The position numbers and the translations under genes were made by a program. This document shows positions 9,095 through 41,593 of a DNA stretch of 64,000 nucleotides, one piece after another; the first letter of the stretch is position 1, and each line of letters begins with the position of its first letter. This DNA is from Metallosphaera hakonensis JCM 8857 = DSM 7519 (GTDB taxonomy: Archaea; Thermoproteota; Thermoprotei_A; Sulfolobales; Sulfolobaceae). The stretch is from contig NZ_CP029287.2 in the NCBI RefSeq assembly GCF_003201675.2, positions 1,240,001 through 1,304,000 on the forward strand, in the 5' to 3' direction. A model generated the notes under the pieces. It did no database searches. It was not told the DNA's origin and was given only the letters and a program-made list of their open reading frames with translations.

Positions 9095-9851
9095 AACTCT
9101 CCGCAAGTTTGAGGGAATTTCTCGCCGCAGTGATGGTATCTTCACCATTAAGCCTCAATGTAAAGTAGCTGGCTAACAGAAAATCTCCATTTCCTACCTC
9201 ATTACCTCCCCTAACTGAGGGTGTATATACCGTTTTACCATCTTCCTTAGTATATAGGGTAAATCCGTTATATCCATTGGAGATAATAATCTCATTGAAG
9301 CCATAGTCTTTGAGCTCATCCACTGTGACTCCGCTAGCTGTGATCTCATCCGTATTAGCATGAAATATGGAGAGATCTGAAGATACTCTATAGTTAAATT
9401 TTCTATTAATCACAATCTCCTCTCCCTCAACGCAGTTCCTTACGAAACCCTGTATGTCCACTGCGACAGGCAAGGGAGATACGTCAATTGAGGGCGGAAT
9501 TTCTCCACATACCGGATTTAGAATTACACCATTCCATCCTTTCAATTTCTGCTCTACTATGGGAATAGGACCATGCCCATGCTTAAGCGTGAGCTTTCTG
9601 GTACCTTCTTTAAACTCCAACAGAAATCTCATGGTTTTCTTAAATATTACCTTCTCTATAATAGAGATATAATCAGGTAGATCAAAATTAAAATCCTCGC
9701 CTATGGAGACATAACCTCCAGCTATTCCACCTGCTTTAGTCACTCCGAGTCCTGAATATATTGGCGCCCCGCCAGGCCTCAAAACATACGAGACACCGTC
9801 CATTATCTCGTCTATGGTCAAGGCTCCAATTATTACGATCCTATTCCTCAT
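9054..9851 (-). CDS. PfkB-family carbohydrate/nucleoside kinase
   Basis: This 265-aa protein belongs to the ribokinase fold. It opens with IVIIGALTIDEI, has a PGGAPIYSGLG sugar-binding segment near residue 26 and the C-terminal anion-hole/catalytic-base motif GNEVGNGDFLLAS near 221. The motif is slightly divergent from the usual D-T-x-G-A-G-D, so the substrate cannot be predicted. Its start overlaps the end of the zinc-finger gene by 11 bp, indicating an operon. Confidence 0.78.
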   Translation of the reverse strand: MRNRIVIIGALTIDEIMDGVSYVLRPGGAPIYSGLGVTKAGGIAGGYVSIGEDFNFDLPDYISIIEKVIFKKTMRFLLEFKEGTRKLTLKHGHGPIPIVEQKLKGWNGVILNPVCGEIPPSIDVSPLPVAVDIQGFVRNCVEGEEIVINRKFNYRVSSDLSIFHANTDEITASGVTVDELKDYGFNEIIISNGYNGFTLYTKEDGKTVYTPSVRGGNEVGNGDFLLASYFTLRLNGEDTITAARNSLKLAESFSILGQNVLTRSG

Positions 9852-25260: not shown

Positions 25261-25677
25261 TCATACGATATCTTTAGGGTCGATTCTCTTAATCCCTGGA
25301 ATCTTATCATAAATATGATCTGTTGATATAATTGCTTTCTCCTTATCGTAGATTAAACAAGTTGCAGCATGATAGGCATCAAAGATCGATGTTATATTAT
25401 ATTGGCTCATTAATGCTAAGGCTAAAAGATCAATATCGATAGTGGTAGGAATCCATTCAATATTAGGTATGCTCTTTAATGCACCTATCTTATCTAATAT
25501 TTCTTGAACTGAAAGGTTCATATTGCGTAAAACGTAATATATCTCGTGTATTGCTTCCCTACTAACTATTACGCTTAGTTCTCCTTTAGCAATCTTTAAA
25601 AGGAGTTTTTCTGATTCTTCCTTTAACCTATCTTCAGTTTTAAGATGAGCTATTAGAACGTCACTTTCGATCAGCAT
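25261..25677 (-). CDS. vapC: VapC-type PIN-domain toxin
   Basis: This 138-aa PIN-domain protein has acidic residues in MLIESDVLIAHL (Asp near 6), SREAIHEIY near 40, FDAYHAA near 99 and the C-terminal ISTDHIYDKI near 117, consistent with a metal-dependent RNase. It overlaps the 3' end of the antitoxin gene by 17 bp, the usual vapBC arrangement. The pair lies among mobile elements. Confidence 0.85.
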   Translation of the reverse strand: MLIESDVLIAHLKTEDRLKEESEKLLLKIAKGELSVIVSREAIHEIYYVLRNMNLSVQEILDKIGALKSIPNIEWIPTTIDIDLLALALMSQYNITSIFDAYHAATCLIYDKEKAIISTDHIYDKIPGIKRIDPKDIV

Positions 25678-25918
25678 GCTGTCTCCTCTGATATCTTTCT
25701 AACGCATCTTTTTCTGCTTCCTTTTCTGCCAACTCCTTTAGTTCTCTCACATTTAAGTCAGTCTTTATAATTCCAGAGGTTTTAGCTAAAGGATCTTTAG
25801 GAACTGGAATCCCAACGAAAAACGTTCCAGCATCAATAATTATAACTGAGCTAGCCTCATCTAATCCTTTTGGTAACTTAATTCTACCTTTATTATCAAC
25901 CTTTACTACATATCCCAT
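25661..25918 (-). CDS. vapB: VapB-type antitoxin (AbrB-like)
   Basis: This 85-aa protein has an N-terminal swapped-hairpin AbrB/SpoVT domain (VVKVDNKGRIKLPKGLDEA) and a charged C-terminal helix (LKELAEKEAEKDALERYQRR) that would wrap the toxin. It is the upstream gene of a vapBC pair, and AT-rich promoter sequence lies above 25918. Confidence 0.85.
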   Translation of the reverse strand: MGYVVKVDNKGRIKLPKGLDEASSVIIIDAGTFFVGIPVPKDPLAKTSGIIKTDLNVRELKELAEKEAEKDALERYQRRQHADRK

Positions 25919-26115: not shown

Positions 26116-27365
26116 GGGCGGCTCAGGAGTCCATTGCGAATTGTATTTTCTAGCTCTGAATTAGGCTTATCCAATGTACAAATTATTGGGTACATTTCGG
26201 ATAAAGTGAGAGGAATGAAGAAGACTGTAATATTATTACAGTGATGAGAAAACAGGTGAATAGGTTGTAGTAGAGCGCTATGGCCCGCGCGAGCTGTAGT
26301 ATCCTCCAGGGAGAGTGAAACAACCCGAACCTCCTCCTCTCCAGGAGGGAGTTGAAGGACTCGACCAGGTTGTTGGACTTAAGCCACTTCCAGAGCTTCT
26401 TGTCGGCGATGAGGTAGCTTAGAAGAGTCGGGTTGGTCTCGGGCTTGATCTTGCCGAGCTCGGCTGACGAGGTGATCGCGTCCAGGGCCTCCCTTTCCTC
26501 CTTGGTCGTACGCTTGAGGTGGACCAGGCAGCCCTGCCTCCCCACGTGAAGTTCAAGGGAGATCGCCCTGTCCAAGGCCTTAATCCCATCAGCCACGACC
26601 AGGACGAAGCTCGTCTTCTTCCAAACCCTGACCAGGAGACTCCAATAGATGGCGTCCTCAGCCTCGCTTATGATGACCTCGAGGACCGCCCTCTTTCCCT
26701 CCCGGGTCACGCCCATAGCCACGAGGAGGACCGCCCTTCGTCCCTTGAGCTTCACGTACTTCCCGTCAACTATCACGTACTTGAAGTCGTTGCCCGTTTC
26801 AATCTCAGGCATCCAGAGCTTGGCGTTCAACTTGCCTCCCTTCACTGAGTAGACCAACATTAGGGACGCGAAGACCTTCCTTTCCTCCCTCAGTAGAGTC
26901 TCCTCGACCTGGGTCCTCACCCTCCCTTCACCGTAAAGCACGGGCAGCTTCACCGATATCCACTCCAACTCGTACTTCGTCTCCCTCTCCTCCATCACGA
27001 TCTTGAACCCCTTCAGGAACCTGTAGCTCGCGTAACCCTTCCTCTTGACCTCCTTACCTCTCTGGTAGTTGGGACTAATCCTCTCAGCTTCCTCCAAGGC
27101 CATCCTCTCGATCTCCTGGACCGGTTTGTTTAATAAGGCGTCATCGGGTAATATCTTGGGGACGAGCGTGAGGGATATCTTCCCAGGTCCCTCTACGAGC
27201 TCCATAATCCGGACCCCGTAGAGGGTTACCTCGTTCACAGTTGACAGTTCCATGATATTACCTCATGCTCGTCCCCTATTAGTGTTACCGAAAATGTAGA
27301 ATCAATTTCTACTATCTAATTCTATAGAAATAAATTGAAATCGCAATGGACTCCTGAGCCGCCCC
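26116..27365 (-). mobile_element. IS256/Mutator-like insertion sequence, copy A
   Basis: The element starts with GGGCGGCTCAGGAGTCCATT at 26116 and ends with the exact complement at 27365, a perfect inverted repeat of about 24 bp. It contains one intact transposase. Copies B (37551, opposite orientation) and C (63375) share the same ends. Its 5' flank (complement of 27366-27374) is the reverse complement of the 3' flank of copy B, which points to recombination between the two copies. It truncates the gene at 27366-27619. Confidence 0.9.
26183..27253 (-). CDS. IS256/Mutator-like transposase (intact)
   Basis: This 356-aa DDE transposase has a first catalytic Asp in YVIVDGKYVKLKG near residue 165, a second in VLVVADGIKALDRA near 220 and the catalytic Glu in SNNLVESFNSLLERRR near 302; the GCLVHLKR block near 240 is the Mutator-type C/H motif. 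The frame is complete, so this copy could be active and could mobilise the others. The base composition is G+C-rich compared with its flanks. Confidence 0.88.
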   Translation of the reverse strand: MELSTVNEVTLYGVRIMELVEGPGKISLTLVPKILPDDALLNKPVQEIERMALEEAERISPNYQRGKEVKRKGYASYRFLKGFKIVMEERETKYELEWISVKLPVLYGEGRVRTQVEETLLREERKVFASLMLVYSVKGGKLNAKLWMPEIETGNDFKYVIVDGKYVKLKGRRAVLLVAMGVTREGKRAVLEVIISEAEDAIYWSLLVRVWKKTSFVLVVADGIKALDRAISLELHVGRQGCLVHLKRTTKEEREALDAITSSAELGKIKPETNPTLLSYLIADKKLWKWLKSNNLVESFNSLLERRRFGLFHSPWRILQLARAIALYYNLFTCFLITVIILQSSSFLSLYPKCTQ

Positions 27366-27619
27366 ACTGTACTAAAATAAGGAATTTTTTCTTCTTCCCT
27401 CTTATAATACTCCAAAGAAAACATTTTCGCATTATTTAATTCTATTTTCTCTTCATCGGTAACTATTATAACGCTTTTTAACATTTTTCTCTCCTTAAGC
27501 ATGTTAGAATATTCTATAGGAAAAGTTATAACGTAATAAGGATACTTTACTCTTTCCCCTTTACTGTTAATCTTAATATTGTACTTTACCCTGACCTTTA
27601 ACTCCTCCTTAATTATCAT
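27366..27619 (-). pseudogene. Unknown gene truncated by mobile elements
   Basis: The N-terminal 85 codons (start MIIKEELKVRV, last native residues near KIPYFSTV) run into the end of IS copy A, which adds an artefactual tail. The fragment is a beta-rich soluble protein I do not recognise. The native sequence stops at TTTTAGTA, immediately followed in the reconstructed ancestor by the left end of the IS4-type element now at 39853, so that IS probably broke the gene first. Confidence 0.6.
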
Positions 27620-27662
27620 AAGTAAATATTCTTTATCTTCCTTTATAAATTCTTTTTCATTT

Positions 27663-27740
27663 TAAGAGAGATTCTCTTCTAACTTATAGAAGAATCTAAG
27701 AGAGAAATATTTAAATACTAGAAAGTAATAACTATACTTG
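27663..27740 (+). promoter_or_regulatory. Promoter of small gene 1 with palindrome
   Basis: A perfect interrupted palindrome AAGAGA-GAT-TCTCTT at about 27664-27678 is followed by the block GAGAGAAATATTTAAATAC at 27699-27717, an archaeal BRE/TATA-like element about 45 bp ahead of the ATG at 27751. Nearly the same block precedes small gene 2 (GGAGAGAAATATTTATATAT), so the two promoters look co-regulated. Confidence 0.5.
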
Positions 27741-27750
27741 TGAAAGAAAA

Positions 27751-27888
27751 ATGGCAAAAAGAACAAACAAAACAAGAAAAAGCAAAAAAGAAGACGATGA
27801 AATGATAGATGAGGTTGAAGAAAAATTTGGGGAATATTGTAGTGATCCAGAGAATTTCACTGATGAGGCTTGTGAAAAGCTATTTTAA
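27751..27888 (+). CDS. Small acidic/basic protein 1 (45 aa)
   Basis: The ORF ATG 27751 to TAA 27888 encodes a basic N-terminus (KRTNKTRKSKK) followed by an acidic helix (EDDEMIDEVEEKFGEYC) and a second Cys near the end. It has its own strong TATA-like promoter and no Shine-Dalgarno-like site. Nothing similar is known to me. It lies convergent to the defence operon and may be a regulator or accessory protein; that is inference only. Confidence 0.5.
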   Translation: MAKRTNKTRKSKKEDDEMIDEVEEKFGEYCSDPENFTDEACEKLF

Positions 27889-28016
27889 TTTTTTCATATC
27901 CTTAAAAGGAACTTAAGAACTTACAATAATTTTTCTTATTGATATAATTCTCTCTTAGAATACAATTTTATTAAGGAGAGAAATATTTATATATTAGTTT
28001 GAAGAAAGTATAATTG

Positions 28017-28172
28017 ATGACAGAAAACGAAAAGGACAAAAAACAAGCAAACGTCACATTCATATCGTTTCCTAGTAAAGAAATTTTTGATGAAATATAT
28101 AATGAACTAAATGAAGATGGTAAAAAGGAATTAGATAGTATGATGAAAGAAGGTAGGGTAAAAATATACTAA
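28017..28172 (+). CDS. Small protein 2 (51 aa)
   Basis: The ORF ATG 28017 to TAA 28172 encodes a hydrophilic protein (start MTENEKDKKQANVTFISFPS) with an amphipathic acidic helix in the second half. The upstream block GGAGAGAAATATTTATATAT repeats the promoter of small gene 1. It ends 17 bp from the stop codon of the EVE-like gene on the other strand. Function unknown. Confidence 0.5.
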   Translation: MTENEKDKKQANVTFISFPSKEIFDEIYNELNEDGKKELDSMMKEGRVKIY

Positions 28173-28188
28173 TTTTTCATTTAATATC

Positions 28189-28596
28189 CTAGACTTTTTC
28201 TATATTTGCTAGCATTTTCTCTATTTCTTCTCCTATCTTATCATCTAATTTCTGAATTCCTGGCAGAGGTCTAAAATTAAACTTCTTAAGCTCTTCTCTG
28301 GTAACGCACTTCCACCTTTTAGGATCCTTATTTTCAAGTACAGACTTTGGTATTTCGGAAACCTTAATTACCATATAATGAGGCCATTCACCCTCAGGCC
28401 AATATTTCTCCTTAAGCTCACCAGTCTCCTTAATTACACCTGAAAGCACTATGCAACCATCAAAATCCCTTTCCTTATCTCTACTTAAATAAAGAAAGAC
28501 CCTACTCCCTGGTCCTTCTACAGAATAAAGCCTACTTGTACCCCAAATGAATATACCTTCATCAAACCTCCTTATGAAAGAACTTTTCCTATTCAA
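28189..28596 (-). CDS. EVE/PUA-like domain protein of defence operon
   Basis: The pattern of this 135-aa protein (GSRVFLYLSRDKERDFDG, then WPHYMVIKVSEIP near 75 and RPLPGIQKLDDKIGEEI near 110) resembles EVE/PUA-like folds that bind modified bases. It is the last gene of the minus-strand operon with a methyltransferase and a helicase, so it could read the methylation state of DNA. The domain call is by eye and moderately uncertain. Confidence 0.55.
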   Translation of the reverse strand: MNRKSSFIRRFDEGIFIWGTSRLYSVEGPGSRVFLYLSRDKERDFDGCIVLSGVIKETGELKEKYWPEGEWPHYMVIKVSEIPKSVLENKDPKRWKCVTREELKKFNFRPLPGIQKLDDKIGEEIEKMLANIEKV

Positions 28597-28657
28597 ATAA
28601 TCATCTAAAGAATATAGAGGTGTTTAGAATAGCTATGAGAAGTCAGTTCTTATCTAT

Positions 28658-31456
28658 CTAGGACTTCTGTACTAATTTGTATTGTATGACTTGGATCTCC
28701 TTTAGTTCAAATGGTGGCTTCAATATAGCCAATCTAGGATTGTTATTCGGGTTTACTACTACATAGAGATAGAAAGTATCATTGAAGAACTCAGAAGCTT
28801 TTTTCTCGTTAGGAGTTAATATGATATCCTCATCTTCTTTGGAGATACCTTTAACCTCTATTCTTTTAGTTTGGTTTTCACATTGAGATTCTATATCATA
28901 GCCCAGATTCTCGTCGTGAATATCCTTAGGATAACAGCCCTTTTCTCTCTCGTAATCCATAACATATTCCATTGCAGCTCTCTCTACTTCCTTCTTATGT
29001 CTCAATAAATCAAGATTGTACCCAGCGTTAGTATTGTAGTCAATAAGTGTGATATTGCCTATTTCATCAGCTATACGTACGCTGACTCCTTTGAGTTTCT
29101 CTGAGAGTTTCTTTTTAAGGTCATTCACAGTGGCCATATCAACTTTATAGAGTGGAGATCTACTATCAAGTTCTGGATTAAGGATAGCTAGAATATAATT
29201 CACTCTCTCCGAAAGGCTCTGGTAGAGAGAGGCCTTCCTTTTCTCTATGTACTCGTCCTTAAGCGATGGTGAGGAGATAGTTCCTTGGACTATGTGCTCT
29301 CTGCACTCAGTTGGTATCGCTCTATCCAGTATTTTATAGGGTTTAAATCCCTCTGGAGTCCATATAGCGAGTTCACTATAAATTGGCTCTCCTGTTCCAT
29401 CTTGATACTCCAGCTCATATATTACACCTTCAGTTGTCTTACCACCCCACAAAAAGCACGAACGTTCAGCCTTAGCTTGTGATGCTTTCTCCAATGCTTT
29501 CTTTATTGCCTTATCGTTAACGCTCAGATTTTTCACAGGAATAGCACCTACATAATACGATACAGGATTTCTGGAGGGATCTCCGGTTCCCACTCCAAGT
29601 TCAGTGGCAAGTGTCAGAAACCTAGACAAGTCATCCTTGGTTACTAATTCACTTGGATCCTTAAGTAAAATAGAGGCATTAACGTGAATGGCTGATGCTT
29701 CAGATATCTCTATTGCTTTTTTCACTGTTTCTATGGCCTCGTCAACCTTACCCATTTCACTCCGTAACTTTTCCTCAGCTTCTTTAACCCCTTTGGTATA
29801 AGCCTCAAAAACGAGTTTAGATACTTCCTCTTCGCTCACTTCTGTTCCTATGACACTTACGCTACCTTCGTCAAAGTCCTTCACTAAATTATCTACCTTC
29901 TGGTAAATTATCTCTAGCACTCTTTGCTCAACTGGTAAGTTGCTTGTGAAGTTATATACAAATATGGGTTTCTTCTGAGGATACCTGTATACCCTTCCTA
30001 CTCTTTGGATATAAGTTATAGGACTCCATGGCATCTCATAGTTAACCACTACATTTGCTATCTGCAGGTTAAGGGACTCTCCTATCACCTCAGTACCTAT
30101 TAAGACTTTTCCTCTCTCCAAAAAGTTTCTTACGTTATAGTTCCTAGTCTGCTCATCTATTCGCCCAGTGGCTATATAAACTCCATCACCTAATATCTTC
30201 TTCAGTTCATGACAAAGATATTCTGCAGTATCAACGAAGGAAGTGAAAATTATAATTTTGTCTCCTTTCTTTAGATGATCATCAATTACATCCTTTAAGT
30301 TATTCAGTTTAGAATCTTTACTCACTTTTTCCCCGAGTTTTATTATTCTATCGAGTTCGCGTAACTCCATCTCCACGAGATCTCTATTCTCTGGAAGTAC
30401 TGAGTTCAGTATCTCTCGATAAATTTCGTCCAATTCTTTCTCTTCCTCTTCAGCCTCTTTAAGACGCTTGATAAGCTCATTTACGTCTCTCCTTATTTCT
30501 TTTGTCAGAATTCTTTCTCTTCTTCTCCTCATAGCTTCAATTCCAGCTCTGACACTACTAGACGCTATTCTACCTAGTATTGTAGCCACGAGACCTACTG
30601 GAGTATTGGGGCCTTTTGACATCTTGTACATCTCTCTGACGTAATATTCAACAGCATTGTAGAAGTCTCTCTCTTCTTGAGTGACGTTGTTAGGTAAGGT
30701 CATTACAGTGACTGGATATGGAAAGAGTAGCTTACCTTCAGTATCCACAACATTCTTCTTTAATCTCCTGAAAGTCCACTTCTTAAGGAATTCCTGGTAA
30801 TTGTATTGATTAACAGAAGCATTTATCAGTTTTAGTCTTCCTAAAAAATGATCTTCCTTCCCGTCATGTGGAGTAGCAGTCAGACCTAGGAAATGCTCAG
30901 TCCTGTCCCTGAGGACTTCAAGCAATTTGTATCTCCTATTCCCTGGAGTTGCCTTATGTAGTTCGTCTACTACCACAAGATCCCATTGAGAACCTCTTTC
31001 CTCTATTCTCTTTACCTTCCTCTTAAGTGTATCTACGCTGGCTATAAGGAGTTGTTTGCTAAGGTCCTCCTCACGCTGAAATTCATGAAACTCCAATTCA
31101 AACTTACTTCCCATCTCTTGAATCCATTGTTTGATAACTGGAGGAGGAGTAACTATTAGAATCCTAGCTCTTTCATTCCTTAGAAGAAGTTCCTTAATGA
31201 ACAACCCAGCAACTATGGTCTTTCCTAATCCAGTCTCGTAAGCTAATAGAGCTCTCACACCAGGATATCTCCTTTCAAGTATGTCGTGAAGTTCGAGCCA
31301 TTGAACAAGTTTCAAGTAATCTTCTAATTGGTATGGAAGAGGGTCTATTTTGGATGTAGCGAAAACTGTCACTGGATCGTAGTTCACCTTATCTAGGATT
31401 CTCTTTGCCTCACACTTAGCCAGGAGCTTGAAGCCCACAAGATCAGACATGCTCAC
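28658..31456 (-). CDS. SNF2-type helicase with C-terminal DUF3883-like domain
   Basis: This 932-aa superfamily 2 helicase has Walker A LAYETGLGKTIVAG near residue 75, a DEAH-like VVVDELHKA near 160, SAT-type GLTATPHDGK near 190 and motif VI YIQRVGRVYRY near 485. The C-terminal region (about 835-920) has ENLGYDIES and RIEVKGISKED followed by LTPNE, the pattern of DUF3883, a restriction-endonuclease-like fold. This combination is known in helicase subunits of methylation-linked antiviral systems. It lies 2 bp from the methyltransferase gene. Confidence 0.85.
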   Translation of the reverse strand: MSMSDLVGFKLLAKCEAKRILDKVNYDPVTVFATSKIDPLPYQLEDYLKLVQWLELHDILERRYPGVRALLAYETGLGKTIVAGLFIKELLLRNERARILIVTPPPVIKQWIQEMGSKFELEFHEFQREEDLSKQLLIASVDTLKRKVKRIEERGSQWDLVVVDELHKATPGNRRYKLLEVLRDRTEHFLGLTATPHDGKEDHFLGRLKLINASVNQYNYQEFLKKWTFRRLKKNVVDTEGKLLFPYPVTVMTLPNNVTQEERDFYNAVEYYVREMYKMSKGPNTPVGLVATILGRIASSSVRAGIEAMRRRRERILTKEIRRDVNELIKRLKEAEEEEKELDEIYREILNSVLPENRDLVEMELRELDRIIKLGEKVSKDSKLNNLKDVIDDHLKKGDKIIIFTSFVDTAEYLCHELKKILGDGVYIATGRIDEQTRNYNVRNFLERGKVLIGTEVIGESLNLQIANVVVNYEMPWSPITYIQRVGRVYRYPQKKPIFVYNFTSNLPVEQRVLEIIYQKVDNLVKDFDEGSVSVIGTEVSEEEVSKLVFEAYTKGVKEAEEKLRSEMGKVDEAIETVKKAIEISEASAIHVNASILLKDPSELVTKDDLSRFLTLATELGVGTGDPSRNPVSYYVGAIPVKNLSVNDKAIKKALEKASQAKAERSCFLWGGKTTEGVIYELEYQDGTGEPIYSELAIWTPEGFKPYKILDRAIPTECREHIVQGTISSPSLKDEYIEKRKASLYQSLSERVNYILAILNPELDSRSPLYKVDMATVNDLKKKLSEKLKGVSVRIADEIGNITLIDYNTNAGYNLDLLRHKKEVERAAMEYVMDYEREKGCYPKDIHDENLGYDIESQCENQTKRIEVKGISKEDEDIILTPNEKKASEFFNDTFYLYVVVNPNNNPRLAILKPPFELKEIQVIQYKLVQKS

Positions 31457-31458
31457 AC

Positions 31459-33984
31459 CTAGGATTGCTTGAAAAAGTGATCTATCCTCCCATCCCTCCT
31501 ATCTTGGAGCTTGTGGATATAGTCTAGAATATTCCCTATGGTATTGTACTCTTTCCCTCTCTCCTGTTCTTTCATTTTACTTTCATAGAAGTGAATTATC
31601 TTAAGGAGATCTTGAAAATCCTCAATGGACATTCCAGCTCCCTTAGCGTGCTCTTCTACAACACTCATGCTTGGTCTAGCATTGAACTGAATTACACATC
31701 GATGTACCCAGTCTACGGCAGAATTACCCATTATATTCGTTATACCCTCCCTCTCCACTAGTTCACTCCTAGAGTAGGCATCGTTCACAATTATGGACGT
31801 CTTCTTTCCCGAAGTCTTCCTTATTAGTCTCTTTCTCTCCAACGAGTTTTGATCAATATTCTTTGAAGCTTTGAGAAGTTGATTAAAGGTGTCAGTATCG
31901 AGCTCTCTCTTTCCTCCACTTAACACGGACAGATAGAATAGAGTCTCTTCATCTAAATTAAGTCTCCTTCCTATAACCTTGTCCATATCTTTCTCTAGGA
32001 AGATGCTTGACGTTACTGTCTGAGCGTAATTTAAGGCGGTCTCAGATATTCTTTTAGTACTGAATGACCTTATCTTAGAGTACTTAGTGACAACGCTTAA
32101 GGCTACTCCTACTGCCCAGAGGTAAAGTTCTCCACGCTCATAATTCAGTTTAGATATACTCTCGTAATTTCTCTCTATTTCCTCCCTTATTTCATCTAGG
32201 ATTTGTCCTTCTTCAGTCTCTAAATTATTTAGTCTCTTCCTAGCTGTAAGGACAAGACTGTAATATACGCTTCTTTTTCCACGTGCAAGAACATTGTTTT
32301 CATTTTCTGTAGCGAGTGGAATGGCACTAGTTATGTGAAACCCTACTCTATATAGGCTATCGAGTACGTGTTCCCAAACTTGTAGGTTACTATGAGCAAA
32401 GAAGAGGACTAAGAGACCATTATCATCAAGTGAATTATAAAGGTTACGTAATGCTGATTCTAACCTTGAGTAAAAGATTTCCGGCGTCCTATCACCTAGG
32501 GCATCTATAGATTCTGATACATCGACCTTCGAGGCTGAAAATTCCGGAAAAAGATCTTCGAGGATGTATCTCTCCCATACGTAGAAGAACTCTGAGATCT
32601 CGCCATAAGCTTTATCATCATAGTATGGAGGATCTGTGACTATGAGTTTATACTTCTTATTTGAAGAGGAAAGAGCTGAGGTTAGTCTAATCTCCACTTT
32701 GCCCTTAGTGTCAGAGAGTTTTTCTGCACTAAACTTCAGTGCATCTACGACGTCTTTGAGCATACCAGAGAGTGAACCAGAGAACTTAGCGAAGGGGTTG
32801 GTCTCTGCATGCTTCCACATTATGCTGATTTGATTAGCCAAGGCGTGGCCAATTCCAAATCTGCTACTGTCCCAGATTGTAGCCCTGCAGTTACGACTTA
32901 CGATTTTCCCTACCCACATGGCAAAAGCCACTGCCATAGCCCTAGCGTACTCCTCCCCCTTCTCCCTCCTGTACCTCTCGACCGTCTCCTTTATCTTCTT
33001 TACGAGGGATGTTAAGACCAGTAGTTGTCTATCGTTGAATAAGTCTCCCCACGACGTGAGGTAGTTCGAGGATCTTATCTCTGATGGTATCTCCTGACTC
33101 GGGATAAATTGAGCCAATTCTTCCTTTTTCTTTTCTAGTATCTCATGGGCCTTTCTCACCATCTCCTCATGTTTTTTGATATCTGTAGAGAACGTCCTTC
33201 CCTCTAAGGCTACTGCAAGTAGGATTTCCCTTTTATTGGTCCTGATGTCTTCACGGATATATTCGTTGGATATCTCTCTACCGCAATGAAGACATAGGGC
33301 TTTTCCCCTGTCGACATTGCCCTTTATATCAATTTTCTCGCTTTCATAACATCTAAAATTAAGCCCGTCCTCTGGCCTTATATAGGTAATTGTTCCTTTA
33401 TCTTTGAGCAATGTCCAGTCATTAACCAATGGAGTTATCTTCTTACACCATTTACATTCTACAACCCATGCCCAAATGTAAGCCTTAACTTCTTTCCCCT
33501 CGTGATCTGGATAAAGTTCAGCTAATTCTCTCCTGAGCTCATCTATTATTCTCTCTCCCTCTTCTTTTACATCCTCAGCTAATTTCTTTCCATACTTCTT
33601 GGGGTATTCTAGTGTAGCCTTCATTATTGCATAAGCTACTGGATTATAGTCCGATAACTCCACGTTAAAACCAAGTCTAAGTGCCTCAAACCCTATCATC
33701 CCAGAGCCAGCAAATGGATCGTAAATAGTTAAGTCGCCATAAATTTCTTCTCCCCTCCTTCTAGCATCTTCATAGATCTTCTTGTAAAGTCCGCTTTTCC
33801 AAGGTTCAGACTTAAATGTGGGAACCTTGCCATCGTTGGAGATTAATTTTATGAAGTCCTCTATCTGCAATCTGTCTGAGATAGACGCTAGCAGTACTGC
33901 TCTAGATACTATCAAGGGTTTCCTAGTGGGCCAATAATGTATCTCACTAATAGGTGGCCTCCCATTTTTCTCCTTCTTAGCCAT
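31459..33984 (-). CDS. DUF1156-type DNA methyltransferase
   Basis: This 841-aa protein has an N-terminal DUF1156-type segment (ISEIHYWPTRKPLIVSRAV), the SAM-binding DPFAGSGMIGFEA near residue 90, two CxxC pairs (CKWCKK near 168 and CLHCGRE near 225) that may bind zinc, and the catalytic TDPPYYDD motif near 452, typical of amino-methyltransferases. It should modify host DNA so that the helicase/ATPase machinery spares it. A 67-bp gap separates it from the 135-aa gene upstream. Confidence 0.86.
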   Translation of the reverse strand: MAKKEKNGRPPISEIHYWPTRKPLIVSRAVLLASISDRLQIEDFIKLISNDGKVPTFKSEPWKSGLYKKIYEDARRRGEEIYGDLTIYDPFAGSGMIGFEALRLGFNVELSDYNPVAYAIMKATLEYPKKYGKKLAEDVKEEGERIIDELRRELAELYPDHEGKEVKAYIWAWVVECKWCKKITPLVNDWTLLKDKGTITYIRPEDGLNFRCYESEKIDIKGNVDRGKALCLHCGREISNEYIREDIRTNKREILLAVALEGRTFSTDIKKHEEMVRKAHEILEKKKEELAQFIPSQEIPSEIRSSNYLTSWGDLFNDRQLLVLTSLVKKIKETVERYRREKGEEYARAMAVAFAMWVGKIVSRNCRATIWDSSRFGIGHALANQISIMWKHAETNPFAKFSGSLSGMLKDVVDALKFSAEKLSDTKGKVEIRLTSALSSSNKKYKLIVTDPPYYDDKAYGEISEFFYVWERYILEDLFPEFSASKVDVSESIDALGDRTPEIFYSRLESALRNLYNSLDDNGLLVLFFAHSNLQVWEHVLDSLYRVGFHITSAIPLATENENNVLARGKRSVYYSLVLTARKRLNNLETEEGQILDEIREEIERNYESISKLNYERGELYLWAVGVALSVVTKYSKIRSFSTKRISETALNYAQTVTSSIFLEKDMDKVIGRRLNLDEETLFYLSVLSGGKRELDTDTFNQLLKASKNIDQNSLERKRLIRKTSGKKTSIIVNDAYSRSELVEREGITNIMGNSAVDWVHRCVIQFNARPSMSVVEEHAKGAGMSIEDFQDLLKIIHFYESKMKEQERGKEYNTIGNILDYIHKLQDRRDGRIDHFFKQS

Positions 33985-34051
33985 ATCATTAATCTCATGT
34001 GTTGGTATGCCTTGCTCAAGGAGTACCTTAACGTCTCGTTCTTGATCCGTC

Positions 34052-34459
34052 TTACTTCACCTTATACATTCTCTTAAATGCCATTACAGCGTCTAACTTC
34101 AATTGATTTAACTTCCACCTCCAAAATGCCACTTCCTCTATACCCATATCTTTCAGGACTTCCCCAGTCCTCTTAGCTCCATTCACAGTATAGATATATG
34201 GTAATATGGACATGAATGCAGATATTCTGCCTCCATTATTAAAATCGTAAATAGGTTTATCTTTCTCTACACCTATCTCGGAAAGGAACCATAATACAAC
34301 GCTCTTCTTCCATCCCGAAGCTCTGGCGCGAATTAATCTCAATTGTACTTTACCATCAGTCTTGTATTCATATATTAGTTTCAATACGCCATTGCTGGAT
34401 TCTTTTATCACATAAACCTCGTTTTGATAAGCTGAGAGTGACATATCATCACTTCTCAT
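34052..34459 (-). CDS. Hypothetical component of defence operon (135 aa)
   Basis: This soluble protein has no motif I can name; it is mixed beta then alpha, with a basic C-terminal half (FWRWKLNQLKLDAVMAFKR). It overlaps the end of the ATPase gene by 11 bp, or begins at an internal ATG 15 bp later, so it belongs to the operon. A small protein at this position is also found in DUF499/DUF1156 loci, but identity to those (for example DUF3780) is not established. Confidence 0.65.
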   Translation of the reverse strand: MRSDDMSLSAYQNEVYVIKESSNGVLKLIYEYKTDGKVQLRLIRARASGWKKSVVLWFLSEIGVEKDKPIYDFNNGGRISAFMSILPYIYTVNGAKRTGEVLKDMGIEEVAFWRWKLNQLKLDAVMAFKRMYKVK

Positions 34460-37082
34460 TCCATTTTATTCCTGCCTTAGTGAGTCTATCCTCTAGGCTA
34501 GAGAGATCTTGTTGGTTTATTTTAACGCTAATCTCAGCTTTCCAATCGTCAAATGTCTTAGCTAGGTTCTCAAGAGCTATCTTTAGTTGACTTGCCTTAG
34601 CTATTGTGGTTCTTAGAACAATCTTCCCATCTGCTTCTAACGTTAGAGACAAACTATTCTCTTTTATTAAGTTATTTAAGCTATATGTTAGTTCTACTTG
34701 AGTTAGAAAATTTTTCAATATTTCCAGGTCTGTTTTAGAACCATTAACGTAAATCGTCTTAAGCACAGGCTGAACGGAAGGAATAGTAGTATGTATTACA
34801 CCATTAGGCGTTAATGTGGGTGATAAGACAGGTGATTGAGATCCTTGTATCTGGGCTTGTGACTTGGGTTCTTTTTGTTCATTTTTTTTCTTGAGCTCTT
34901 CCAACATTTCTCCCCTTATAATATAGTAGTTATTACTTAGAGAGGGAATAGAATCTACTAGCTTATTCTCATTATCAGTTATTCCTATAATACCATTTTT
35001 GACACCGTCTTTGACCACTTCCTCAAAGACACTCTTAGGGAGAAAAGGTATTGCGTCAGATCTTAGGATATTATTATAACATTCCTTTAGGCTAGCCATA
35101 GGATTTCGCCCCATGAGTGCCTCAAAGAAGGAGTCTACATTCACCAGTTCAGGATCTAAGAAAGCCTTACTCACCTGTGTTAATCTGTCTATAAGTGAAT
35201 CCACGAATGCCTCATTAGTCATCTCTCGAGGACTAACTACATCGTTTTTCATATTACCTCTCTGCTGATATAACATGCTACTGTAAGTCCTTAGAAATGC
35301 AGAGATTAGTTCGTTTTCTATCTTTTTCTTTTCTACAGAAATACTCTTCCTTAATGAATTGTCGTTTGTAGATTTCATGAGCTCTTCGGCAGCTATTGAT
35401 TGCTTAGCTAGCTCCTCTAAATTAGCTATTGGTTCATCTTTCCTAGGGTAGATAAGTATCACAGAGTTCCTGAACTCAGAGTCAATATTGAAGAGGTGTT
35501 TCTCTTGTGCGTAATTTCTAGCCCACTTATCCATGTCTGGTTCATAGCGAAGTGGTACGAAAATAATGTTAAGCTTACCCTCGACTAGATCCTTTTCAGA
35601 TTTCACATCAAAGATTACGTTACATTTTCCATTATACTTATTTTCAAATTCCTTACTTATGTTCATAATAAGAGAGCGTAATTCCTTTTCTATGTCATTA
35701 ACGTCCTTGGCTCTATTCTTTATTAGGGCTATCACGCTGAGGGTCTCCCTAAAATAGTACTTCTGATTCTCGTAATTGAAGTCCATATAATAAGATTTAC
35801 CATGAATATAGTTGTCAGCTAGTTTACTGAAATCATCTGGAGGAAGAGTAAGTAGAGCTCTAGACAGTTCTGTCTTAGTTAAGCCTCTAGCCTCTGGCTT
35901 TGGATGTAGTGAATACAGGAATACTGCGGTAGCTAATCTCTTATCTTCACGTGAAAGCTTTTCAGACGTAATTTCCTCTAGTATTTGCTCCATATTCTTA
36001 ATATTATATATAGAATAACTTGTAAGTCTTTCCTTCACCAGACCGTTTAGCTTAACTTCTCCCAAGGTTATGAATGGAGTAGGCATGTCCTCCAAATCTG
36101 TAACTATTCCAGCAAGTATCTTTAATGCATCTCTTGTCCTCTGAAAGTTAGGAAACTCCAAGAGCCTCTTACTTACCAAATCTATTAACATAGGATGAAA
36201 GGGATAGGAATTATTGTACAGATTTTCGTCATCTTGGTTGAAGGTTAGGCCGTATTTTTGGAAGCAATCTCTCACATAATTGGTAGCCTCCTTTGCTTTC
36301 TTTATATCGATCGATTGAAAGAGCTGTTTCTTGGCTATCCTAACGAAGTCAGCCTCTCCTTGTGGGTAAATTATCTTGGCCTTTCTAGCTAGAGGCTTAA
36401 AGAAGTCTGATATTTCTCTATATCCAGCCTTATTGGGATCATCTTCTGGGACAGAGATGACTATCACGGAATTCTGACTATCCACTATAGCCTCTAGTAA
36501 AGTGCGTATATGTGCCATATCTGTCCCAGCCCTATCTGCTCTTCTACTCAAGTACTGGAGTATTTCATCTATAAAGATCACTACTGGTTTCCCTATAGAA
36601 TCCAAGCTCTCCTTTACCTTCTCCTTACTATCTCCTTTATTAAAGAAACTCTTCACTTGAGGTTGATCTATGAAGGATAGAGAGGAATCCATGTTTAGTC
36701 CATCTAAGACACAAAGTTCGACCTCTGGAACCATCTTAACCTCCGCTTGAGCTAGAATATCCTTTACTTCGTCTCTCACTGACAATCCTTTATATTTAAG
36801 TAAAAGGTAAATATATGCCATAGCATGTGACTTTCCACCTCCCATTCTAGTGTCGAGGAGATATGCTGGATAACTTTCCTTACCTGATACTCTAGCCAAT
36901 ATCAGTTTAGCCATTTCCTTAAGTGACTCTACAAGTTCTGTCCTATCGAAGAACTCTCTGGCTTCGTCATATGAGAGCTTCTGGACCTTAGTTAAATCCA
37001 CAGCAAAAAGATTATCGTCAAGTCTACCCGTAGATCTTGCTTGAATTAGATATTCTCTCAGGGGAGGTATATTTTCATTCAT
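34449..37082 (-). CDS. DUF499-family AAA+ ATPase of defence operon
   Basis: This 877-aa ATPase is the promoter-proximal gene of the operon. It has an unusual Walker A, LDTRMGGGKSHAM near residue 78, and Walker B VVIFIDEILQYLSRR near 170, both typical of DUF499 proteins that accompany DUF1156 methyltransferases and helicases. A low-complexity linker rich in Gln, Pro and Ser lies near 735-765, followed by a C-terminal domain of about 110 residues. The promoter (TTTTTAAAC, complement of about 37115-37123) lies between the ATG and a MITE at 37147. Confidence 0.85.
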   Translation of the reverse strand: MNENIPPLREYLIQARSTGRLDDNLFAVDLTKVQKLSYDEAREFFDRTELVESLKEMAKLILARVSGKESYPAYLLDTRMGGGKSHAMAYIYLLLKYKGLSVRDEVKDILAQAEVKMVPEVELCVLDGLNMDSSLSFIDQPQVKSFFNKGDSKEKVKESLDSIGKPVVIFIDEILQYLSRRADRAGTDMAHIRTLLEAIVDSQNSVIVISVPEDDPNKAGYREISDFFKPLARKAKIIYPQGEADFVRIAKKQLFQSIDIKKAKEATNYVRDCFQKYGLTFNQDDENLYNNSYPFHPMLIDLVSKRLLEFPNFQRTRDALKILAGIVTDLEDMPTPFITLGEVKLNGLVKERLTSYSIYNIKNMEQILEEITSEKLSREDKRLATAVFLYSLHPKPEARGLTKTELSRALLTLPPDDFSKLADNYIHGKSYYMDFNYENQKYYFRETLSVIALIKNRAKDVNDIEKELRSLIMNISKEFENKYNGKCNVIFDVKSEKDLVEGKLNIIFVPLRYEPDMDKWARNYAQEKHLFNIDSEFRNSVILIYPRKDEPIANLEELAKQSIAAEELMKSTNDNSLRKSISVEKKKIENELISAFLRTYSSMLYQQRGNMKNDVVSPREMTNEAFVDSLIDRLTQVSKAFLDPELVNVDSFFEALMGRNPMASLKECYNNILRSDAIPFLPKSVFEEVVKDGVKNGIIGITDNENKLVDSIPSLSNNYYIIRGEMLEELKKKNEQKEPKSQAQIQGSQSPVLSPTLTPNGVIHTTIPSVQPVLKTIYVNGSKTDLEILKNFLTQVELTYSLNNLIKENSLSLTLEADGKIVLRTTIAKASQLKIALENLAKTFDDWKAEISVKINQQDLSSLEDRLTKAGIKWNEK

Positions 37083-37532: not shown

Positions 37533-38043
37533 CTCTCATGTTATAATATAGGGCGGCTCAGGAGTCCATTGCGATTTCAATTTATTTCTATAGAATTAGA
37601 TAGTAGAAATTGATTCTACATTTTCGGTAACACTAATAGGGGACGAGCATGAGGTAATATCATGGAACTGTCAACTGTGAACGAGGTAACCCTCTACGGG
37701 GTCCGGATTATGGAGCTCGTAGAGGGACCTGGGAAGATATCCCTCACGCTCGTCCCCAAGATATTACCCGATGACGCCTTATTAAACAAACCGGTCCAGG
37801 AGATCGAGAGGATGGCGAGGGAGGAAGCTGAGAGGATTAGTCCCAACTACCAGAGAGGTAAGGAGGTCAAGAGGAAGGGTTACGCGAGCTACAGGTTCCT
37901 GAAGTGGTTCAAGATCGTGATGGTGGGGAGGGAGACGAAGTACGAGTTGGAGTGGATATCGGTGAAGCTGCCCGTGCTTTACGGTGAAGGGAGGGTGAGG
38001 ACCCAGGTCGAGGAGACTTTGAGGGAGGAAAGGAAGGTCTTCG

Positions 38044-39094
38044 CTAGTATTTCCGGAAAGTTATGAACGCTCAATTTTATCAAGTCCCAAGTATTTTACT
38101 GCATTAAGGTTGAACTTGTAGTTATTTTCCGCGAAGAACTTCAGGATGCAGTCCCTCAGCTCGTCAAGCGAGCTGAAGAGCCTGTTGGACAGGTAAGCCT
38201 TGAGCTGTTTGAAGACGGCTTCCGCCAAGTTGAGCTCAGGGGAGTACTTGGGGATGTACTCCAGGTGTATCCCCTTCTTGGAGGAGACCTCCTGGACTCC
38301 CTGGGTCTTGTGGGGAGACGCGTTGTCCATGAAGAGGTAACTCCTACCCTTCCCGACCCTCCTCTTGAAGTAGCGCAGGAAGTACTTCACGGACTCGGAG
38401 TTGGGCCTGTCAGCAACTGTGAACACGACCTCCCCTGTCCACGCATTAACAGCGAGGAGGACGTAGGTCGAGGAGAAGCCCGTGTTGACCCTGAGGACTG
38501 GTTTACTCCCTCGTCTCGCCAGGACTCTTTTCACCAGGGTGCTGATCACGGCCCTGCACTCGTCGAAGAAGTACACCGCTTCGTCTGCCAACTCCTTCAC
38601 TTTTTTTAAAATCGTCCCACTTCTCCCTTTCAGCCTTCACGTTGGTGGGCCTGGGCGTCACCAGCTCGTACCCGAGCTCGTGGACCAGCTCGTACAGCCT
38701 GGACTTCCTGTACTCCACTCCCCTCTTCAGGAGTACAACCTTGAGCGCCTTGACCGTCCAGAAGTCCTGCTCGATCCCGTAGTTCCTGGGCCCATCCTCC
38801 AGGACCCTCTTCACATCCTCCTTCCCGGCCTTTCTGGGCCTCCCGGACCTGGGCCTATCCCTGAGGGCCTCTACCCCTCCCTTCCTGAACTTCCTCACCC
38901 ACGTCCTCACCGTGGAGTAACCCTTGTTGAGGACCTTCGCGACCTCCACCTCCTTCATCCCGTCCACTACGTGCATCTTGACTGCTAGTATCCTCTCCCT
39001 CACCTTGACGTCCTTCTCCCTCTCGTAAGCCTCTACTAAATTTTCCATTCTTCTAAATCATTACAGAACGTTTTAAACTTTTCGGAAATACTAG
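38044..39094 (-). mobile_element. IS630-type insertion sequence with CTAG ends
   Basis: Left end CTAGTATTTCCGGAAAGTT and right-end complement CTAGTATTTCCGAAAAGTTT form an inverted repeat of about 20 bp. The length is 1051 bp, close to that of the Sulfolobus IS630-family element ISC1048. Comparison with copies A and C of the host element shows that the insertion added exactly these 1051 bp, without the TA duplication usual for the family. Several MITEs in the window share its ends. Confidence 0.85.
38061..39048 (-). CDS. IS630-type DDE transposase in two frames (A7 shift site)
   Basis: The upstream frame (from 39048, MENLVEAYEREKDVKV) encodes the helix-turn-helix part (KVLNKGYSTVRTWVRKFRKGG). 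The downstream frame to 38061 encodes the DDE catalytic core: YFFDECRAVIS, YLFMDNASPHKT and PKYSPELNLAEAVFK. The frames meet at TTTAAAAAAAGTGAAGG near 38601, a run of seven A where +1 slippage joins WDDFKK to VKELADEAVYFFDE. IS630 elements often use such shifts, so the gene may be functional; a simple indel is the alternative. Confidence 0.78.
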
Positions 39095-39852
39095 CGTCCT
39101 TAATGTTGGTCTACTCGGTGAAGGGAGGCAAGTTGAACGCCAAGCTCTGGATGCCTGAGATTGAAACGGGCAACGACTTCAAGTACGTGATAGTTGACGG
39201 GAAGTACGTGAAGCTCAAGGGACGAAAGGCGGTCCTCTTGGTTATGGGCGTGACCCAGGAGGGAAAGAGGGCGGTCCTCGAGGTCATCATAAGCGAGGCT
39301 GAGGACGCCATCTATTGGAGTCTCCTGGTCAGGGTTTGGAAGAAGACGAGCTTCGTCCTGGTCGTGGCTGATGGGATTAAGGCCTTGGACAGGGCGATCT
39401 CCCTTGAACTTCACGTGGGGAGGCAGGGCTGCCTGGTCCACCTCAAGCGTCGCGCGACCAAGGAGGAAAGGGAGGCCCTGGACGCGATCACCTCGTCAGC
39501 CGAGCTCGGCAAGATCAAGCCCGAGACCAACCCGACTCTTCTAAGCTACCTCATCGCCGACAAGAAGCTCTGGAAGTGGCTTAAGTCCAACAACCTGGTC
39601 GAGTCCTTCAACTCCCTCCTGGAGAGGAGGAGGTTCGGGTTGTTTCACTCTCCCTGGAGGATACTACAGCTCGCGCGGGCCATAGCGCTCTACTACAACC
39701 TATTCACCTGTTTTCTCATCACTGTAATAATATTACAGTCTTCTTCATTCCTCTCACTTTATCCGAAATATACCCAATAATTTGTACATTGGATAAGCCT
39801 AATTCAGAGCTAGAAAATACAATTCGCAATGGACTCCTGAGCCGCCCCAGTA

Positions 39853-40271: not shown

Positions 40272-41593
40272 GGGGCTACCAGTTATAGTTGTGGTAGCCA
40301 AAGGTGAAAAATAATGGCGAAAAGTAAAAATAACCCCGGAAGGGGTAATATAAGGGAGGGTAATACCATGAAGGTAAGGGAGGAAGTGAGGGAGACCATA
40401 AGGAAGGCAGTCAACGAAGGAGTCAGCCTAAGGGAGATCGAGGAGATGATACTACAGGAGGCCATGATGGAGGAGAGGGAAGCGTATCTTGAAGTTGAGG
40501 ACGACGAGAAGAACGGGACGTACTTCAGGTATCTGGGCACTGGAAACGGGGTGTTGAGGCTCAGGGTTCCGAGGACCAGGAAGGGTGGATTCAGGCCGAA
40601 GATCCTACCGGAGAAGTACGAGAGGATGGACCAGGGCTACGAGGAGTTCCTCCTGGGACTTGTCCTTTCTGGGATGACTCCAGGTCAGGTAAAGGCTGTT
40701 CTCGCAAAGGGCATACCGTACAGTGAAGTGGTGATGGACCGCGTCGCGGAGAGGATATCCAACAAGCTCAGGGAGTTCAAGAGCCGCGAACTGCCTCACG
40801 ACCTCCTCTCTACGTGGACGTGAAGTTCGTTAAGGTCAGGATCAACGAGACCATTGTGGAGAGAGCGGTTTACATTGCCATAGGAGTTGACCTTGATGGC
40901 AACAAGTCCGTCCTGGACTACGATGTCAGGGATAGGGAGGACCTGGACGGTTGGAAGTCCTTCTTGGGAGGTCTAGTGAGCAGGGGAGTCAGCAGAGTAG
41001 ACGTAATCGTAAGCGACGACTTCTCGGGTCTGGATCGCGTCGTGTCCACTCTCTTTCCCTCCTCAGAACACCAGCTCTGCATAACCCACTTGATCAGGAA
41101 CCTCATGAGGGTCCTTCCTGACAAGGAGAAGGACGAGCTGATGGCTAGGGTTAGGGGCCTCAAGTCCTCGAGGAACGTTGAGGAGGGAAAGAAGGCAATC
41201 TCGTCCCTCAGTCAACTCGTTGAACCCTTCTCTCCAGCTCGCGCCAAGAGGCTTCTAGACGCTGGTGATAGGTACTGCGCCTTCCTCAACTTCCCCAGGG
41301 AAGTCAGGCACTACCTATACACCAACAACACGTCGGAGAGCTTCAACTCAACCTTAGCCAGGTTCGAGGAGGAGCTCGGAGGTTACTTCCCCTCCCTTCG
41401 CTACCTGCAGGTCTACCTCTACGTCTCCATCGAGGAGAGCAACTCCCGTTGGAAGTCGAGGCCCATGTCGGTGATAAGGCATCACTCCTATCACCTGAAA
41501 CAGCTCCACGCCTCCAGGTTCCAGGTGAGCTTTGATGAAGACTTTTAAGCTAGTGCTTATATATTTTCTTACACAACTATACCCGGTAGCCCC
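40272..41593 (+). mobile_element. Second IS256-type insertion sequence (1322 bp)
   Basis: Left end GGGGCTACCAGTTATAGTTG (40272) and right-end complement GGGGCTACCGGGTATAGTTG (from 41593) form an inverted repeat of 22 bp with three mismatches. The size is close to the Sulfolobus IS256-family element ISC1332. The flanking octamers (GCCACCTT and ACTGGTTC) do not match, and two different truncated sequences abut the two ends, so a deletion or rearrangement occurred at this IS. Two 71-bp MITEs at 61545 and 61961 share its ends. Confidence 0.85.
40314..41548 (+). pseudogene. IS256-type transposase with frameshift
   Basis: The first frame (40314-40823) carries the DNA-binding part (RETIRKAVNEGVSLREIEEM and MTPGQVKAVL); the second (to 41548) begins with PLYVDVKFVKVR, containing the first catalytic Asp, then VIVSDDFSGLDR, QLCITHLIRN and TNNTSESFNSTL. 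The join at about 40795-40811 needs a one-base shift, with no obvious slippery run (GACCTCCTCTCTACG). It is either a decayed gene or an unusual recoding site. Confidence 0.75.

Follow-up and report, generated by a model that had tools for sequence, protein, structure and literature searches.

A small, conserved fourth gene in an Hma-like operon of Metallosphaera hakonensis

Locus layout and core proteins

We analysed a stretch of 64,000 nucleotides (nt) from Metallosphaera hakonensis JCM 8857, referred to below as the window (bases 1,240,001-1,304,000 of a genome that forms a single contig of 2,544,115 bases). It carries, in a crenarchaeal form, a restriction-like antiviral operon of known kind with helicase, DNA methylase and ATPase, joined by a gene for a protein of 135 amino acids (aa) that, judged by its recurrence elsewhere, appears to be a conserved fourth component and not a local extra. 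All five open reading frames (ORFs) predicted at the locus were confirmed on the minus strand:

34449..37082, minus strand: DUF499/HmaC-like AAA+ ATPase, 877 aa (PADLOC HmaC, NCBIfam DUF499_antiphage, motifs in the translation)
34052..34459, minus strand: small fourth component, 135 aa, putative divergent DUF7680 relative (same-slot homologues, hhalign, AlphaFold)
31459..33984, minus strand: DUF1156 amino-methyltransferase, HmaB-like, 841 aa (Pfam DUF1156, HmaB, alignment of relatives)
28658..31456, minus strand: SNF2 helicase with C-terminal NOV_C nuclease, HmaA-like, 932 aa (HmaA, NOV_C, motif comparison with relatives)
28189..28596, minus strand: EVE/YTH-like gene remnant, 135 aa, TTG start, 5'-truncated (earlier start in homologues, end of homology)

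The ATPase and small genes overlap (spacing -11 nt), and spacings of +67, +2 and +61 nt separate the small gene from the methyltransferase gene, the latter from the helicase gene, and the helicase gene from the EVE-like gene. The genes for ATPase, small protein, methyltransferase and helicase form a tight operon, four of the five genes. The first-pass annotation had described five coupled genes; spacing supports the coupling of the first four, and the truncated EVE-like gene comes from another cassette. Similarly, the recurrent neighbours in other genomes are these four genes and not all five. A promoter and terminator scan upstream of the operon gave nothing above chance.

The Hma system in PADLOC consists of HmaA helicase, HmaB methylase and HmaC ATPase (Payne et al. 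2021, PMC8565338). Homologues of all three lie adjacent on one strand of the window, each PADLOC model being matched singly, which supports the proposed helicase-methylase-ATPase plan and its assignment to the Hma or DUF499-DUF1156 type. The ATPase matched HmaC at 5e-33 and NCBIfam DUF499_antiphage at 7.5e-22, the latter far under the equivalog cut-off of the model, and did not match Pfam DUF499 itself at E<=1. Its Walker A (GGGKS) and Walker B (VIFIDE) motifs are both intact in the translation. The methyltransferase matched Pfam DUF1156 above the cut-off (1.1e-6), Pfam N6_N4_Mtase at 3.7e-7 and HmaB at 1e-56. Alignment with relatives showed the motifs DPFAGSG and DPPYYD, with CxxC pairs within an inserted region.

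The helicase matched HmaA at 6.5e-81 and retains a DELH box as well as an intact PD-(D/E)XK-like nuclease end (Pfam NOV_C, 4.5e-19; motif GYDIES..RIEVKG). Its Walker A motif (GLGKT) lies at residue 75, compared with about 124-178 in full-length bacterial HmaA, and a TUDOR-sized N-terminal segment is therefore missing. The Pfam scan placed the start of the helicase domain near residue 38 and gave no domain match before Walker A, no separate TUDOR profile having been run, and no PLD match for an N-terminal HKD/PLD nuclease. PglZ was not matched in Pfam, PADLOC or NCBIfam among the five proteins and the scanned neighbouring ORF. In a related locus, L034, the helicase keeps a longer N-terminus with a weak SH3-like match there.

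The nuclease motif is missing from the helicase in five Sulfolobaceae Hma loci, where a gene of 422-427 aa overlaps the helicase end (L042:231-1511, L045:3-1103, L046:18412-19683, L139:172-1440 and L192:16955-18238; the L045 copy is cut by the edge of its stretch). One of these proteins of about 425 aa was scanned and matched metallo-beta-lactamase and RMMBL domains. The gene may encode a replacement nuclease, perhaps by an effector swap.

The small gene directly after the ATPase gene

The small protein had no match in Pfam, PADLOC or NCBIfam. The window protein alone, used in a phmmer search of ORFs from neighbourhoods around related methyltransferases, matched only L036 and L049 (the same HS-7 locus) and L047, each time downstream of an ATPase gene. 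A profile from these first members recovered an ORF in L034, between ATPase and methylase. In a search of the class, capped and sampled at one genome per species, matches were found in 26 of 229 genomes, nearly all within a few kilobases of a methylase. We tabulated the gap to the ATPase gene in 25 loci, the window included. The small gene lay directly after the DUF499 ATPase in every one, with a median gap of -4 nt and a single outlier at +468; because these loci were gathered partly via the small protein, 25/25 measures position and not prevalence. The other 24 loci are nearly all from Thermoproteia. Six further cases (L256, L257, L260, L261, L266 and, weakly, L270) came from loci chosen via the methylase only, and L180, a match from the 229-genome search, also has the gene in the slot. 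In L252, L262, L263 and L265 an ORF of 146-184 aa in the slot was not recognised by the small-protein search, whose profiles miss diverged members. What had been noted as an extra small protein recurs in the same slot in 24 other loci and seven more, and is best seen as a conserved component. The closest relative of the window system, L047 (JALSOD010000190.1), lies on a contig that is assigned to the metagenome-assembled genome (MAG) of a WOR-3 bacterium. Its gene content (DUF365, PIN pairs) could be archaeal, and misbinning is possible.

When single family members were searched, 3 of 24 weakly matched Pfam DUF7680 (best 0.0017). In hhalign comparisons, where E-values apply to single comparisons, the Thermoproteia set aligned with true DUF7680 proteins and their relatives at P=94.9% and E=4.6e-8, against P<=2.2% for an EVE control. 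The window protein and DUF7680 share a C-terminal [FY]W-x-x-K motif and a [KR]A-x-R-x-L tail. On a plasmid of Halobacterium the gene directly after DUF499 encodes a true DUF7680 protein, of which Halobellus has a nearly identical copy. By tblastn, DUF7680 relatives also occupy this slot on plasmids of Nostoc, Picosynechococcus, Pseudanabaena and Allocoleopsis. The DUF7680 domain follows the ATPase in two Chloroflexi MAGs as well, there as a fusion with an ASCH reader domain. The profile-profile and slot evidence suggests that the small protein is a divergent DUF7680 relative. Our literature search gave no paper mentioning DUF7680, and the plasmid relatives are publicly annotated as 'hypothetical protein'; the Hma slot gives this family a working context. 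AlphaFold modelled the small protein with three strands and five long helices (predicted local distance difference test score, pLDDT, 90.6; predicted template modelling score, pTM, 0.84), and the model had no match below E=0.1 among PDB structures or viral models.

Two further loci extend the range of these proteins. A second relative of 130 aa (9137-9529) is encoded in the genome of M. hakonensis itself, in L191:5020-11645 (about 60.0-66.6 kb). Its gene is part of a different set of overlapping genes, whose other products are a STAND-like ATPase (1015 aa), a coiled-coil-like protein of 358 aa and a DEAD-box helicase (707 aa). The set may be a further defence operon that uses the small-protein component. 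We rejected this set as a conserved kind of system, as relatives of its ATPase were not found with a small gene. In L197:976-3812, a BrxL gene and a PglZ-like fragment are followed by a gene that scores over the Pfam cut-off for DUF7680, and the family is therefore also present in a BREX-like locus.

In a recent regrouping into DUF499-centred BREX-related systems, which reports 408 archaeal taxa (Rakesh and Krishnan 2026, PMC12839542), Type-2 is defined by DUF3780 and an HKD-helicase. We found the order DUF499, DUF3780, DUF1156 in seven plasmid loci, two of them with extra genes between, and the three that were fetched whole continue with a phospholipase-D-like (HKD) protein. DUF3780 forms a four-stranded sheet with five helices and is at times fused to ASCH or RAMA readers (PMC12839542); part of the reported DUF3780-ASCH fusions might be DUF7680. 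The operon's proteins include no standalone DUF3780 by Pfam match. Against ten DUF3780 sequences the small protein gave hhalign E-values of 0.09-0.3, no better than the EVE control, and despite the shared slot and a fold described in similar terms it was rejected as a DUF3780 protein. DUF3780 is a different Pfam family that fills the same slot in Type-2, its homology to the small protein not shown by hhalign, and the parallel appears to be an analogy of position, perhaps of function, and a testable one. Tentatively, and with somewhat more doubt than belief, we suggest that DUF7680-like proteins, perhaps with DUF3780, form a single adaptor family that connects modification readers and nucleases with the ORC-like ATPases of BREX/Hma, and that the Thermoproteia loci form a separate four-gene Hma subtype missing from current classifications.

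Several observations weigh against a four-gene operon with a DUF7680-like adaptor. The small protein of the window itself did not match PF24728 (DUF7680), its kinship being drawn from profile-profile and slot comparisons. Among 50 genomes, mostly bacterial loci picked by methylase similarity, DUF7680 was found in only two Chloroflexi. Most bacterial Type-1 loci have no small gene, indicating that the core chemistry can work without it. The same absence, together with published definitions of three genes, would fit an ordinary three-gene Hma/Type-1 system, the small protein being no working part of it but a passenger in loose linkage, for instance an inhibitor or an antitoxin-like protein. Yet passengers in the same loci, PIN and HigB genes among them, vary, whilst the small gene holds a constant position, overlapping the ATPase gene, across dozens of divergent Thermoproteia, haloarchaeal and bacterial loci. 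We therefore consider a passenger unlikely, and a fourth component bound to the ATPase as an adaptor most likely.

The EVE-like gene and the surrounding mobile elements

Mobile elements were confirmed on both sides of the operon, in agreement with its proposed location in a mobile-element island. The features next to the operon are:

26116..27364, minus strand: left insertion sequence (IS) copy, 1249 bp long and bounded by 33-bp terminal inverted repeats
27370..28618, minus strand: transplanted block, whose blastn counterpart (87% identity) adjoins a type I restriction locus in another genome of the family (L136, G175)
37551..39847, plus strand: right IS copy, inverted relative to the left, split at about 38042-39096 by another IS

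The block reaches from the edge of the IS to within 40 nt of the helicase stop codon and contains the EVE-like gene, whose DNA homology to relatives ends at 28618. About 19 N-terminal codons have been lost relative to homologues (the family is about 150 aa long). The second gene of the block, a 105-aa ORF at 27302-27619, ends in IS sequence and has an intact 106-aa homologue at L136:10851-11171, indicating that it was cut by the IS. On the basis of truncation and block homology, the EVE-like gene was rejected as a fifth operon member. It and its interrupted neighbour look like transplanted, broken remnants of another cassette.

The EVE-like family was found in a handful of genomes from the same family as M. 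hakonensis. In G175 the neighbours are a putative type I restriction locus and a further methylase; in G155 the gene adjoins a lone methylase, in G042 a methylase is close by, and in G125 an Hma operon lies about 13 kb away. Only in G136, among the other genomes found, does the gene adjoin an Hma operon. These mixed methylase neighbours mark the family as a companion of DNA modification genes in general.

Archaeal COG1743-DUF499-SWI2/SNF2-EVE neighbourhoods with a standalone EVE gene have been published (Bell et al. 2020, PMC7641849). They would favour a system of five parts, its EVE-like protein serving as a reader of modified bases in viral DNA, the role that those authors proposed in archaeal loci with EVE. 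L047 carries a true EVE gene immediately ahead of its ATPase gene (Pfam 1.2e-27). The model of the window's EVE-like protein (pLDDT 77) also matched YTH structures weakly (TM about 0.46, with E>0.1). However, the protein had no match in Pfam (PF01878 included), PADLOC or NCBIfam, its family adjoins other methylases elsewhere, and the window gene is 5'-truncated within a block from a type I restriction locus. A five-part system is thus highly improbable here. The possible modified-base reader of the first-pass annotation is a 5'-truncated gene of an unrelated restriction-modification cassette, found beside Hma in one other genome, and we dropped it as a misleading lead at this locus.

Across the genome the IS occurs as about 13 full-length copies, besides many fragments. 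The two copies around the operon have outer flanks that do not correspond. On its inner side the left copy is flanked by CACTGTACT; the reverse complement of this sequence, AGTACAGTG, flanks the right copy on its outer side, after a single intervening C. A composite transposon carrying the operon was rejected, as the outer flanks differ and the flank match fits an inversion instead, which suggests that the enclosed segment was inverted by the IS. The element splitting the right copy (38042-39096) is putatively IS630-like and split into two ORFs, and a transposase in two pieces at 40314-41548 adds to the nested insertions right of the island. Just outside the left IS, at 25261-25918, a PIN-domain protein gene overlaps that of an 85-aa partner, a probable VapBC-type toxin-antitoxin pair.

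Bracketing IS copies and truncated neighbour genes could mean that the island is decaying and the operon no longer functional; in the same genus, the Hma locus L043 (G072) has its ATPase in fragments beside a related IS. In the window, by contrast, the four core ORFs are uninterrupted and their catalytic motifs intact, so we give decay only a slim chance and favour a functional four-gene operon.

Archaeal subtype, proposed function and relation to known systems

A methylase tree, built in a quick version and with varying composition, and not reliable in its deeper branching, resolved five groups with no mixing. One holds the DUF3780 loci and a second the DUF7680 loci from haloarchaea, cyanobacteria and Chloroflexi; a third lacks the small gene, a fourth consists of Thermoproteia loci where no helicase was found nearby, and the last unites the 22 Thermoproteia-type loci that carry the small gene (support 98). 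In this tree the methyltransferase of the window pairs with that of L047 (support 99) on a long branch. The suggestion that the archaeal version may be a distinct subtype is thus supported, as these 22 methyltransferases form one group with a common small gene beyond the published Hma definition. The Thermoproteia group in which no helicase was found (L035, L037, L038, L039, L040 and L041) has a methylase and a DUF499-type ATPase, and a scan of L035 showed a PD-(D/E)XK protein and an MkoA-like one among the neighbours.

An RM-like (restriction-modification-like) role has been proposed for DUF499-centred systems (PMC12839542), and the same paper cites reported antiphage activity of an Hma helicase. 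The window locus is probably a four-gene RM-like antiviral operon of the Hma/DUF499 BREX-related kind in its Thermoproteia form, with defence as the predicted function. The DUF1156 methyltransferase would mark the cell's own DNA, and the ORC-like (origin recognition complex-like) DUF499 ATPase would assemble on DNA in a putative complex with the DUF7680-like small protein, both scanning. Where the mark is absent, the SNF2 helicase would translocate and its C-terminal NOV_C nuclease would cut the invader DNA. As adaptor, the small protein may relay modification status or target recognition to methylase and helicase. Its links to readers, through the Chloroflexi ASCH fusion and the reported reader fusions of DUF3780, suggest that it conveys modification status. 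If the small gene is required in archaea and cyanobacteria, clones of the three named genes would fail, and current detectors miss a component, as no PADLOC or NCBIfam model matched it.

Given the earlier Hma, BREX-related and Bell et al. reports, the core of our finding is already known; new here is the small gene as a conserved fourth component. Published Hma and Type-1 BREX-related descriptions contain only three genes (PMC8565338, PMC12839542). Like the locus studied here, Hma joins helicase, methylase and ATPase in one operon. Our locus differs in the fourth conserved small gene between ATPase and methylase and in a helicase N-terminus about 50 residues shorter, and it does not reach the NCBIfam equivalog cut-offs. 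Type-1 systems share the DUF499 ATPase, the DUF1156 methyltransferase and an SNF2 helicase that ends in a fused PD-(D/E)XK-type nuclease, but have three genes and an N-terminal TUDOR in the helicase, whereas our locus has four genes and no room for a TUDOR segment.

Type-2 has the same order of DUF499, small gene, DUF1156 and helicase, but its small gene is DUF3780, to which our small protein showed no homology, and its helicase carries an N-terminal HKD/PLD nuclease, absent from the operon described here. Type-3 is defined by PglZ and iSTAND (PMC12839542), with PglZ in the core locus, whereas the scanned window proteins have no PglZ match. The neighbourhood of Bell et al. resembles our locus in its archaeal core genes with an adjoining EVE-like gene, although here that gene is cut short and belongs to a different family, one that does not match Pfam EVE. 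Finally, DUF7680 (PF24728) shares with the window small protein the slot after DUF499, the C-terminal motifs and a profile-profile match, whilst the full DUF7680 loci found fall in a separate methylase group and have longer helicase N-termini.

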